Source: Phycisphaeraceae bacterium (GTDB taxonomy: Bacteria; Planctomycetota; Phycisphaerae; Phycisphaerales; SM1A02). Taken from it: a DNA stretch of 64,000 nt. Shown here piece after piece: positions 1-58,671 of this stretch. The position numbers and the translations under genes were made by a program. How positions within the stretch are numbered: the stretch's first letter is position 1; each line of letters begins with the position of its first letter. The stretch spans positions 248,001-312,000 of the forward strand of contig JAHBWZ010000001.1 of NCBI GenBank assembly GCA_019636755.1. The letters run 5' to 3'. Under the pieces are notes generated by a model, which did not search any database, was not told the origin of the DNA, and worked only from the letters and a program-made list of their open reading frames with translations.

Positions 1-146
1 CGCGAATCAGCGATCGCGGACGCGCCGCGCCGGACACGCCGTCGTCGCCAGACGTCCCCGGCGCGCGACCCTGCGCCCCATGCGCGCCCATCCGACCACC
101 CGCGCGCCGGCTGACCCCCAACCACCGTCATGCGCGCAAGGGGGTT

Positions 147-172
147 GCAGGGGGGGCCTCAGCCCCCCCTGC
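147..172. repeat. G7/C7 hairpin, outer end of repeat copy 1
   Basis: A perfect 10-bp stem (GCA followed by seven G, paired with seven C followed by TGC) has a 6-base loop. It is one of two inverted hairpins that bound the core of repeat copy 1. Confidence 0.85.
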
Positions 173-340
173 GCTCGCGCACCCGGACGGAAATCCGCGT
201 GATCGAAGAAGACCGGACGTCAACCGCGATCCTTGAACAACATCGAGCGAGTGAGATCGCGCGCGCATGGACGACTCTGCGACCTGACGACGCGCTCAGG
301 CACGCCGCCGTGCACGCCATCGATTTCAGGACGCGCGTGC

Positions 341-366
341 GCAGGGGGGCTGAAGCGCCCCCCTGC
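341..366. repeat. G6/C6 hairpin, inner end of repeat copy 1
   Basis: The stem GCAGGGGGG/CCCCCCTGC has an 8-base loop (CTGAAGCG). It faces the hairpin at 147-172, so the two flanks GGGGGTT and AACCCCCC point outwards as inverted repeats. Confidence 0.85.
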
Positions 367-500
367 AACCCCCCGCGCGGATGGACGATCCCGGACGCGC
401 CTTCGCGCGCAACGCATCGGTCGCGGACGCGACGCGCCGGACGCGCGATCGCCCCAGAGATCCATCGAGCACTCCGGCGGAGTATTTCAACAGTCTGCGA

Positions 501-55049: not shown

Positions 55050-55222
55050 CCTCGCGGTGAAGTACTTCGGTCCGATGCGCGAGTGGTGGTGTCTGCGCGC
55101 ATCGGGTCCATGGTCGCGCGAAGAGGACGTCTGCCGATGACGGCGCGTCCGATCCGGCGCGTCCGCAGCCAGTGAGTCGCGCGCGAGGGCGCTCCCCGGA
55201 CCGTCCATCCGCGAGGGGGGTT

Positions 55223-55248
55223 GCAGGGGGGCGCTTCAGCCCCCCTGC
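55223..55248. repeat. G6/C6 hairpin, left end of repeat unit 2
   Basis: The stem GCAGGGGGG/CCCCCCTGC has an 8-base loop and is preceded by GAGGGGGGTT. It faces the hairpin at 55378-55403. Confidence 0.88.
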
Positions 55249-55377
55249 GTTCTCGCGACCTGGACACTTGCGCTGGCGCGCGCGCGCGCTTGCTCGCTCG
55301 CTCGATGTCTTTCGTAGGACCGCGGTTGACGTCCGGACTCCTCGATCACTCTGTTTCCCGTACACGGGTGCGCGAGC

Positions 55378-55403
55378 GCAGGGGGGGCTGAGGCCCCCCC
55401 TGC
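55378..55403. repeat. G7/C7 hairpin, right end of repeat unit 2
   Basis: GCA plus seven G pairs with seven C plus TGC; the loop is CTGAGG. It is followed by AACCCCC, the mirror of the flank at the left hairpin. Confidence 0.88.
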
Positions 55404-55540
55404 AACCCCCTTGCGCGCATGAAAGCTGGCGGGATGGGCCGGCGCGCGAGTGGTGGTGTCTACGCGCATGGAGTCCAGGGTCGCGCGCTGAGGACGTATC
55501 GCGACGGCGGCGCGTCCGGCGCGGTGCGTTCGCGACCGAT

Positions 55541-55548
55541 GATTCGCC
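55541..55548 (+). repeat. Left 8-bp target-site duplication of the IS66 element
   Basis: GATTCGCC directly before the left terminal repeat. The same eight bases follow the right end at 58230-58237. Eight bases is the typical IS66-family duplication. Confidence 0.95.
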
Positions 55549-55629
55549 GTAAGCGCTCGACGAACGACGTCCCCGCAGTGCTCTGCGCCGGCGCATGGCC
55601 GGCTGGCCGAGGATCGGGCTGAGATTCAG

Positions 55630-57190
55630 CGGGGCCGCGTGACGGCGAACGCGCGGCGGCGGGCGGCGGCGGCGGCGACCTTGCGGACGGCCGCGTTCCT
55701 GCTGAGGAAGCCCCACCTGGTCGGGCAGGAGATCGGGCGTGCTCGTGCTCGGGCGTGTCGTTCACGCGAGCCAGACGTCCGCCAGCCAGATCGCCGGGTT
55801 CTCGATCCTGCACGCTCGCCGACTCGACCATCGTGTACAGCGTCGCCGCCGCGCGGCCGCCATCCGGGTTGCCCGCGAACAGGTAGTCCTTCCGGCCGAT
55901 CACCATCGGCTTGACGCCGCGTTCCGACGCGTTGTTGTCGATCGCGAGACGACCGTTGCTCGCGTATCGGCTCAGGGCCTCCCGGTGCCGCCGCACGTAT
56001 GCGATCGCCCTGCCGAGCTTCGACTTTCGGCAAGCGCAATCTGGCTCTCGATCGTGTCCAGCCGTGCGTAGAAGCCGTCCAGCTCCGGCTTCGCGATTCC
56101 GCGTTGTCGAAGGTGCGCTGTCGCCGCTTTGACATCTGCTGCTCGTCTCGATGGCGTACAGCTTCCTGGATCTCATCCACGCTATGACTACCGGGCAGGG
56201 ATGCCCAGCTTCGACTTCTCGAAGACCTCCGCCGCCGCATCCAGCATCCTGCCGACGACGCGCGTGCCGAACCTCTTCTCGTCGAAGAAGATGTCGTAGA
56301 TCGACGATGCATCCGCCCGAGTGTCCCGCTGAACCCTTCAGCTGCCGCTGCGGCCCGGGCGTGTCCTGCGCCCCGTGAAGTCGTACGCCACGTACGGGCG
56401 CGCGATCGTCTCCGCGGTGGCGCTCCAGAATCCCGACGCCTGTGCGTCGATCTCAGCGCCCCGGCTCCATCATCGGAAGCGTCGAGCCGTCCGTCTGGAC
56501 CACACCTGGGATCGCAGGATCCGGCTGTGCATCAGCTTGTACACCGGTTCCAGCGCCGCCACGCATCCCATCAACCACCCGCACATCGTCGAGCGGTTGA
56601 TGTCGATGCCGTTCCGTCTGAAGATCTCCTCCTCGCGGTGTTCACTCGCGATGATCGTCGAACTTGTTCACGATCACGGGGCCGAGGCCCGGTCCCGCGA
56701 GGCACTTCGCGATCGCCGCCGGGCTTCGGGCGCCGTCTCGACCTCGCTTCCGGCACGAGCGGCATCGCGCGTAGGTGAATGTCACGTGCCGGTCACGACC
56801 AGCTTCGCCGGCACGAGCTCATACTGCTCACTGTCCTGCGACCGATCACGACGCGCGTTCTTCACCGCAGCACGGGCATGGGAGCACCGGGACGGATCGA
56901 GCCTGTGCTCATGGATGACACGTGGCAGGTGGGCTGGATCTTCCGGCGCCCCGGAAGGCTTCGTCCGCGGCGGTTGACTGCGTCTGCTCTTCCGCGGGCT
57001 CGGAGCGCGCGATCGGCGTCGGTCGCCCGGCCACGGCTTCGCTGGAGCATCCTGCAAAGAGCAAAGCGCGCCGCGTCCATCTTCCTCTGACTGGCGTCCC
57101 TGGCAGCCGCCGCAGCATACGCGAGCTGCTCGGAGAGCTTCGCGTTCGATTTCCGCGGGCCAGTCTGTTCACGACCCGAGCAGGTGGATG
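55630..57190 (-). pseudogene. tnpC: IS66 TnpC (DDE transposase) remnant
   Basis: Pieces of TnpC appear in order but in different frames. The early zinc-region piece is LPRVIHEH … SEQYELVPAKLVVT (about 56800-56960). Then come GIDINRSTMCGWLMGCVAALEPVYKLMHSRI and VVQTDGSTLPMMEPG near 56450-56620, ATAETIARPYVAYDF near 56400, and the C-terminal SKLGRAIAYVRRHREALSRYASNG with RLAIDNNASERGVKPMVIG (55850-56030), which carries the third catalytic acidic residue. Several frameshifts and stops separate them, so no full transposase can be made. Confidence 0.85.
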
Positions 57191-57429
57191 ATCATCTGCT
57201 TGGAGGACCCCGACGTCGTTTGGGCAGATCCCCGATACCGGTGACTCCCACGCCTGACGGGCTCGGCGTGCCCGACGAGACCGTTCCGCACCGCCCGGTC
57301 GTCGCACGTGGGTCGTGGTCGTGGTCGTGGTCAAGGTCGTCGGCACGTCGCGTCCCTGCTGCGATGTGCAAGGATGCATCACACGCGCGATGTCAAGCAT
57401 GAACATGCGGCGCTTATCGCAGCATGATG

Positions 57430-57780
57430 CCGATCGCTGATGCTGCCGCGCCGGGCGCATCGCGCACGTCGATGTTCCTCGAGGATCAGCGTCGCGTCGC
57501 GATCCACCTCGACCGACGCCGAGCCGTGGGCGCGCGACGGGAATCGGAACGTTCTTCTCGGTATGCTTGTACCAGAGCGCGAAGCCGTCGCGATCCCCAG
57601 TACAGGATCTTCATCCGATCGCCGCGCCGGTTGCGGAACACGAAGAGGCAGGTGACCTCGGAGAGCGGATCATCCGCGAGACCTTCGGCGCGTCATCCCG
57701 GCCGTGCCGTCGAAGCCGCCGCATGTCGGTGACCTCGGTGCACAGCAGGATCCGCGTCGAGGGCGGGAGATCGTGCCACG
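57430..57780 (-). pseudogene. tnpB: IS66 TnpB remnant
   Basis: Translation in shifting frames gives LPPSTRILLCTEVTDMRR, then CLFVFRNRRGDRMKILYW, then DRDGFALWYKHTEKN, which is the order of the conserved TnpB (IS66 Orf2) protein. At least three frameshifts are needed to join them. Confidence 0.85.
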
Positions 57781-58151
57781 CCCGCCTCGTGCGCGCGGAG
57801 CACGCCCGCGATGGTCGCCTGATCGGCGTGACCGTTCACACGAACGACCGCGTCGCCCGGCAGCACGATCTCGATCGGGCGCCTGGTCCGCTCGCGGGAT
57901 CTGGAGGGCGACGAACCGCGGCTGCGTCCGGCTGCTGCTGCCGGCTCGGCCTCAGCGCCGGCCGGGCGCCGCCGCGCGCCGACGGGAGCTCCTGCCGCTT
58001 TGCCGTAGAACGAGTTCGCCTTCAGACCGTGCTCGCCGCAGTACGCCCGCGCGCTCAGCCCACTGGCCTCCCACCCCGCGATGCGCTCACGCCACGCCCG
58101 CTCGATCTCCGTGTTCCGCCTCCGCCCACCGTCCCTGGGCTGCTCCGCCAT
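57780..58151 (-). pseudogene. tnpA: IS66 TnpA remnant
   Basis: It starts MAEQPRDGG, then RAWRERIAGWEASGLSARAY and CGEHGLKANSFYGK, the helix-turn-helix part of IS66 TnpA. The C-terminal piece IEIVLPGDAVVRVNG is in the same frame, but the segment expected before it (RFVALQI) appears in another frame, so compensating frameshifts have damaged the middle. The frame then runs on into tnpB sequence without its own stop. Confidence 0.8.
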
Positions 58152-58229
58152 CGCCAGCCTCCTTTCGAGGCCTCCGATCGTCGCATGTGCCGCGAGACGG
58201 CGCCAAGGCGTCGTTCGTCGAACGCTTAC

Positions 58230-58237
58230 GATTCGCC
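58230..58237 (+). repeat. Right 8-bp target-site duplication of the IS66 element
   Basis: GATTCGCC, identical to 55541-55548, directly after the right terminal repeat. Confidence 0.95.
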
Positions 58238-58278
58238 AGCCAGGCCGGTCCCGGGACCGTCCATCCGCGAGGGGGGTT

Positions 58279-58304
58279 GCAGGGGGGCGCTTCAGCCCCC
58301 CTGC
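58279..58304. repeat. G6/C6 hairpin, left end of repeat unit 3
   Basis: The stem GCAGGGGGG/CCCCCCTGC matches the left hairpin of unit 2, including its 8-base loop. Confidence 0.88.
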
Positions 58305-58431
58305 GTTCGCGCGACCCGGGCAGTTGCGCGCGCTCGCGCGCGCGCTTGCTCGCTCGCTCGATGTCTTACGAAGGACCGCGGTTGTCGTCCGGACTCCTCG
58401 ATCACTGTGTCTTCCGTACCGGTGCGCGAGC

Positions 58432-58456
58432 GCAGGGGGCTGAGGCCCCCCCCTGC
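58432..58456. repeat. Degenerate hairpin, right end of repeat unit 3
   Basis: GCAGGGGG, loop CTGAGG, then eight C and TGC. The G and C runs now differ in length, so the stem is imperfect compared with units 1 and 2. Confidence 0.8.
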
Positions 58457-58671
58457 ATCCCCCCTGCGCGCATGAAAGGTGGGTCGCGTTCAGCCGGCGC
58501 GCGAGTGATCGGGTATGCGCGCACTGGGTCCAGGATCGATCGATGCGGACGTACGGCCACGACGGCGCGTCCGGCGCGGCGCCATCGCGGCGCTCCGGTC
58601 ATCGGGACCGACGCCTGCGGATCAGTGCATCAGCACAACGGGACCTTCGGCGTGCGCAGTCATGTCGCCGC

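Follow-up and report, generated by a model that had tools for sequence, protein, structure and literature searches.

Bacterial interspersed mosaic elements (BIMEs) are extragenic arrangements of regularly spaced palindromes in alternating orientation, and Escherichia coli has two versions of the palindrome (PMC2817692). Repetitive extragenic palindromic (REP) sequences are located mainly downstream of coding regions, between unidirectional and convergent open reading frames (ORFs), and REP-like sequences without terminal motifs occur in several genera (PMC3733652). REP doublets forming hairpins (REPINs) consist of an inverted pair of palindromes with a less conserved spacer and are also found in tandem clusters (PMC3116915), and REPs are hot spots for insertion sequences of the IS3, IS110, IS4, IS256 and IS5 families (PMC1525189). 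In Neisseria intergenic mosaic elements (NIMEs), intergenic arrays 200-2700 bp long are built from short inverted repeats together with longer repeated blocks, and the dRS3 repeat has the pattern ATTCCC(N8)GGGAAT (PMC3898611). In the present study, a repeat was analysed that occurs in a 64,000-nt stretch of DNA from Phycisphaeraceae bacterium (assembly GCA_019636755.1; C1:248001-312000 of a 4,110,699-bp genome in 20 contigs; hereafter the window) and at many other places of the same genome. Probably it is a non-coding interspersed repeat that is private to its lineage, belongs to the REP/BIME kind and lacks a known terminal tag.

The repeat is non-coding and forms tandem arrays, situated mostly behind genes, of two G-rich hairpins, A and B, that alternate in opposite orientation; the array formula is (B hairpin - tail - A hairpin - core)n, where core and tail are the two spacers. 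The stem-loops are ~26 bp each, have the form GCAG(G)n...(C)nCTGC and are inverted versions of one palindrome of ~40 bp. Hairpin A reads GCAGGGGGGCGCTTCAGCCCCCCTGC and is directly preceded by GGGGGTT, and hairpin B reads GCAGGGGGGGCTGAGGCCCCCCCTGC and is directly followed by AACCCCC. The two have different loops, and each folds alone as a stem of 10-11 bp (consensus folded as DNA: -14 kcal/mol for A and -16.3 kcal/mol for B). Read from the sequence, the sense-strand loops of A and B complement each other, one of the pairs being G-U. Among 98 hairpins detected in the loci with a pattern that puts no constraint on the loop, the loop was CTGAGG in 50, CGCTTCAG in 36 and one of ten others in the remaining 12. 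The alternation of A and B was found among the 93 hairpins recognised by pattern (91 unique places) in the first-fetched loci, with departures within 330 bp flagged at L054 (B, B) and L057 (A, A). The usual array period is ~390-420 bp, and the spacing of ~367 bp given by the original prediction, an earlier reading of the window, is atypical. The distance from A to B is 155 and 153 bp in the window array versus 187-208 bp at most other loci, and at locus L032 B and A are 150 bp apart. As the original prediction had already noted for GTAG, neither a GTAG nor a CGTC tetranucleotide lies beside the hairpins: the flanks of aligned A and B carry GGGGGTT / AACCCCC and TGCG. The dRS3 pattern does not fit the A and B hairpins.

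The window holds two hairpin pairs near 55 and 58 kb and a third, inverted pair at its start. The motif GGGGGTTGCAGGGGGG occurs at six places in these three regions (five exact, one with one mismatch) and, with 3 mismatches, at a seventh place (50689); the expected number of matches was 1.19, and none of 100 shuffles reached seven. Originally, the three regions were described as three copies of one unit. They do belong to the same family, and those near 55 and 58 kb, 3056 bp apart, share 87% identity over 204 nt, but the stretches from 55.07 to 55.55 kb and from 58.23 to 58.60 kb form a single tandem array into which an IS66-type element has inserted. The copy at the window start is inverted as described and forms the last part of an array whose beginning lies before the window, at ~C1:247114 by BLAST, and whose end lies at window position 446 (BLAST) or 464 (unit profile). 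A tRNA-Gly gene lies ~330 bp upstream of the split array, and beyond the end of the array follows a convergent aldehyde dehydrogenase gene. The described tandem arrangement behind tRNA-Gly thus applies to the window without being general, as a tRNA was found by ARAGORN in only two of the 36 stretches scanned (the window and L141). The features are as follows, in window coordinates:

1-464, minus strand: right-hand end of an inverted array starting before the window, with hairpins at 147-172 (B) and 341-366 (A)
55069-55215, plus strand: first tail spacer, downstream of tRNA-Gly (direct repeat D2; unit profile match)
55216-55248, plus strand: hairpin A with its GGGGGTT lead (stem-loop 55223-55248)
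55249-55377, plus strand: core spacer carrying an alternating GCGC/GCTC tract (most loci have a longer core)
55378-55410, plus strand: hairpin B (stem-loop 55378-55403), then AACCCCC
55411-55548, plus strand: tail spacer of the first unit, cut by the insertion sequence and ending in GATTCGCC (55541-55548)
55549-58229, minus strand: IS66-type insertion sequence interrupting the array (91% identity with the L052 copy)
58230-58271, plus strand: second copy of GATTCGCC (58230-58237) and remainder of the interrupted tail spacer
58272-58304, plus strand: hairpin A of the second unit (stem-loop 58279-58304)
58305-58431, plus strand: core spacer of the second unit
58432-58463, plus strand: hairpin B of the second unit (58432-58456, with unequal G and C runs)
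58464-58602, plus strand: tail spacer of the second unit and array end (direct repeat D2; unit profile match)

Genome-wide mapping with the unit profile, in which arrays split by IS66 were counted once, gave 39 loci with a total of ~25 kb (22,151 bp + 2,836 bp) or ~0.6% of the 4.11 Mb genome, and thereby supported the proposed dispersed family with facing palindromes. BLAST returned 163 pieces with a core query and 132 with a B-tail-A query, the latter leading to seven additional loci. The exact hairpin pattern was hit 101 times (48 + 53), some symmetric sites being counted on both strands, and 92 of these hits fall in the first-fetched loci. Four loci are situated at or near contig ends (C8, C11, C13 and C15), where the arrays probably break the assembly, and the copy number may therefore be underestimated.

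The hairpins are more conserved than the spacers. In 83 profile hits, which were chosen without the hairpin pattern, agreement with the consensus was 98.8% in A (1506/1524), 97.9% in B (2049/2094) and 83.3% elsewhere (15721/18866). Pairwise identity in pattern-picked segments (21 of 26 A-B and 25 of 28 B-A segments, near-duplicates and one short segment being excluded) was 99.2% and 97.9% in hairpin columns and 71.1% and 79.3% in spacer columns; picking by the hairpin pattern favours hairpins, and the profile-based recount agrees. The earlier argument that a conserved middle of the unit suggests function is weak, since the hairpins are conserved more than the middle.

For the analysis of the gene context, genes were predicted by a simple codon-usage script, with uncertainty about small genes and starts, and context classes were assembled by hand, whereby reversed arrays were turned and tRNA-Gly was taken as the upstream gene of the window array. 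Leaving out the four contig-end loci, 35 of the 39 loci have both neighbours, and these comprise 16 convergent, 16 same-strand and 3 divergent sites. Convergent sites are enriched in comparison to adjacent gene pairs of the fetched loci, for which a stricter gene score was used than for the arrays (16/35 versus 13/142, p=2.6e-6), and also in comparison to those background pairs with a gap of >=60 bp (8/74, p=1e-4). Of the 16 same-strand arrays, 13 have the orientation of the genes and 3 the opposite one (p=0.02, loci related by duplication being treated as independent); the count was initially 11:2, before the seven loci were added. If only protein genes are counted, the window array changes from convergent to antisense and the ratio becomes 13:4 (p ~0.05). 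The array start lies within 50 bp of the upstream stop codon, or just overlaps it, in 11 of the 39 loci. The arrays are intergenic except for overlaps with gene calls in L049, L055, L056 and L142 and an interrupted paralogue in L046. No common function was found among the 22 of 62 listed flanking genes that were scanned (10 with NCBIfam and 12 with Pfam, two being IS66 genes).

The IS66-type element in the window array is 2.68 kb long, has 22-bp inverted ends (55548-55569 and 58209-58230) and is flanked by an 8-bp target duplication, GATTCGCC. The ORFs of the L052 copy match TnpB_IS66 and DDE_Tnp_IS66. Minus-strand ORFs wholly inside the window element reach at most 228 aa versus 571 aa in L052; the window copy looks decayed because no transposase ORF of the L052 length is present. 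Three full-length IS66 copies exist in the genome, and all three lie inside arrays of the hairpin family. The chance of this is ~2e-7 under uniform insertion, given the share of the arrays in the genome, and ~1.6e-4 if the intergenic share is assumed to be 10% (calculated with an earlier array total). An 8-bp duplication of array sequence flanks two of the three copies (GATTCGCC in the window and CGCTCGCT at L118) and is missing at L052/L116. Because the element has its own inverted ends and duplicated array sequence at these two copies, it entered pre-existing arrays. Five further IS66 matches in the genome are 29-115 bp long, the best being 97 bp at C15:343445.

In comparison to the described systems, the arrays share with BIMEs the alternating palindromes in two versions, the extragenic location and the high copy number, but they have no GTAG-type tag, their spacers are longer, and no matching REP-associated tyrosine transposase (RAYT) was found. 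Their location downstream of genes and at convergent sites fits the REPs described in PMC3733652, and the likeness to untagged REP-like families is one of description, not of compared sequences. Like REPs, the arrays harbour an insertion sequence, although IS66 is outside the five families named in PMC1525189. NIMEs resemble the arrays in combining inverted repeats with longer blocks and in block size; the sequences are unrelated, the 20-bp dRS3 of Neisseria is a target of a filamentous phage, and the arrays differ in their longer palindromes and in IS66 entering the spacers. REPINs differ in spacer length, terminal tag and associated RAYT. For want of a tag, and because the search turned up no RAYT, the family was classified as BIME-like and untagged, and not as a REPIN or a miniature inverted-repeat transposable element (MITE).

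The position of all three full-length IS66 copies inside arrays would be expected if the repeat were a MITE or composite mobile element carried by IS66. This is highly improbable, as the inverted ends of the element and the two target duplications show entry into existing arrays, 36 of the 39 loci are without a full-length IS66 and the array ends are not fixed; IS66 was accordingly rejected as the vehicle of the arrays. The MITE interpretation of the original prediction is at odds with the varying array ends and with the gene sequence that is missing at the array in two paralogue comparisons. If the repeat were a miniature element of the REPIN type, mobilised in trans by a Y1 (RAYT-like) transposase through recognition of the single-stranded A or B hairpin, this would account for the facing palindromes, for hairpins more conserved than spacers and for tandem clusters as in REPINs (PMC3116915), and Y1-like genes are present in the genome. 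Pfam Y1_Tnp has one match (L059:1219-2649), and Y1_Tnp-related sequences were detected by tblastn on C16 (L145, C16:191000-201000); the Pfam search missed the latter, and another Y1 gene could likewise be missed. However, the Y1-like loci examined adjoin a different repeat, GTGTGKCCATGA, in direct and inverted copies, with 10 of its 12 exact genome sites in the two Y1 regions (five in each), whereas no GCAGGGG was found in 13 kb and no GCAGGGGG in 10 kb read near these loci. A transposase gene flanked by its own palindromes is the logic of RAYTs (PMC2817692), which therefore points to the GTGTGKCCATGA repeat and not to the A/B arrays; GTGTGKCCATGA is probably a second small repeat family tied to its own Y1 transposase. 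With the absent GTAG/CGTC tag and the long spacers added, a REPIN origin is improbable. The REPIN architecture proposed earlier holds for the facing palindromes as an analogy only, and no transposase flanked by the A/B motif was found at the Y1-like loci examined.

It is also unlikely that the arrays are transcribed modules of the 3' untranslated region that act in termination, insulation or stabilisation under selection on RNA structure. Consistent with such modules are the orientation of the same-strand arrays with the genes, the convergent enrichment, the complementary A/B loops and the fold of the window unit (z=-6.2), a score for which the inverted repeat alone may account. On the other hand, of the pairs predicted by RNAalifold no more than 1 of 68 and 2 of 55 had a double change, and because compensatory changes are almost absent a conserved RNA fold of the spacers is not supported. 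A terminator with a U tract was rejected, there being no terminator-like call at the A/B hairpins, and so was a known RNA family, since Rfam at gathering score gave no match besides the tRNA in the window and none convincing in L037; moreover, the unit is absent from the relatives searched. Likewise improbable is a lineage-specific 3'-end device in which transcribed hairpin pairs with complementary loops would separate convergent transcripts, under selection on hairpins and orientation, so that the arrays would be more than passive repeats. The preferred interpretation as an untagged REP/BIME-like repeat also has to face several observations that weigh against it. No route of spread and no clean empty site was found, only the gaps at L046 and L038 described below. 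Identity of core spacers was 0.676 within a locus versus 0.712 between loci (5 pairs), and that of tail spacers 0.845 versus 0.792 (7 pairs), near-identical neighbours being excluded from the alignments. No significant depletion of divergent sites was seen (p=0.77 and 0.17), the orientation bias is modest and is not explained by the near-symmetric hairpins, and the 3.1 kb around the 97-bp IS66 fragment at C15:343445 contain no array match.

Searches in other genomes covered sets of relatives that held no same-genus genome, the same-order set including many same-family genomes. The DNA query matched none of 40 relatives. Of 180 other same-family genomes one had the hairpin pattern, at one symmetric site, and a longer hairpin pattern occurred in 4 of 399 other same-order genomes with 1-4 sites each; exact patterns would miss diverged hairpins. 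None of the same-order pattern loci offered, nor one from G094, matched the unit profile at E<=1. DNA matches with E<=0.01 in 25 of the 180 same-family genomes fall within query positions 38-126, mostly in the GCGC/GCTC tract, and with at most 4 candidates scored per genome none covers a whole hairpin. Scans with hairpin patterns returned 23 stretches in a genome-contig collection, which may exclude records of the window's own genome, and 3 in viral contigs, all being hairpins without the unit. Among these, no stretch other than L079 (E 0.005) and L070 (E 0.31) matched the unit profile with E up to 10, and both did so in the hairpin alone. The repeat had no match in the plasmid and phage collections, and a plasmid or phage origin was rejected on this ground. 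A text search of the open-licence literature, made by description and not by sequence, found no account of the family. As far as searched, the family thus appears to be lineage-private and not an artefact. Among the findings that would speak against it, the original prediction had named that the three copies are the only ones and that relatives lack them; the first is contradicted by the 39 loci, and the second was observed.

The array ends are scattered over many unit positions, contrary to the hairpin-ended unit of the original prediction. In an exploratory analysis they were frequent in the core tract: model positions 95-160, a range picked after the data were seen, accounted for 16 of the 37 left and 11 of the 37 right ends. 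At L044, L047 and L051 common sequence begins at the right end of the array, most of the next 4 kb is also common to L044 and L047, and L046 and L058 share the right flank; judging from these alignments, the copies probably moved with their surroundings. Of the empty sites proposed for search no clean one was found, but gene sequence is missing at two places. The L046 array occupies the place of ~690 bp of a paralogous gene region present in L052, and ~1.7 kb of L044 sequence has no counterpart at the L038 array, so that both sites look like replacements rather than clean insertions. New places may have been reached in part when chromosome segments were duplicated and in part by another, perhaps hairpin-dependent, route. 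Some arrays may have grown by local tandem duplication, and adjacent units in L037 are 98% identical; recent tandem growth everywhere is not favoured because the spacers are not clearly closer within a locus than between loci. The arrays could persist since very stable hairpins after genes would be harmless, or, alternatively, the hairpins might help by keeping transcript 3' ends apart and stable.

The family is sizeable, untagged and REP/BIME-like, and the search for a RAYT was negative; it therefore bears on the question of how untagged palindromic repeats spread, and an IS66 element with all three full-length genome copies in such repeats is a notable association. The kind of element is ordinary, while its private sequence is unusual. 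For annotation, some contig breaks are explained, and an apparent pair of repeats is one array cut by an insertion sequence.

The arrays at L044, L047, L038, L046, L052, L055 and L058 adjoin paralogous secreted-type genes with duplicated segments of up to 4 kb, and some of these genes have HAF repeat, choice-of-anchor Q or dockerin-like matches; a GC-type dockerin match below the cut-off lies beside one array. The repeats may help such genes to duplicate. Additionally, records of Roseomonas and Falsiroseomonas (L061, L063, L065, L068, L073, L074 and others) contain GGGGTTGCAGGGGG hairpins directly after a short hairpin of the CCAGGG...CCCTGG type, and these apparently belong to a different repeat or terminator family.

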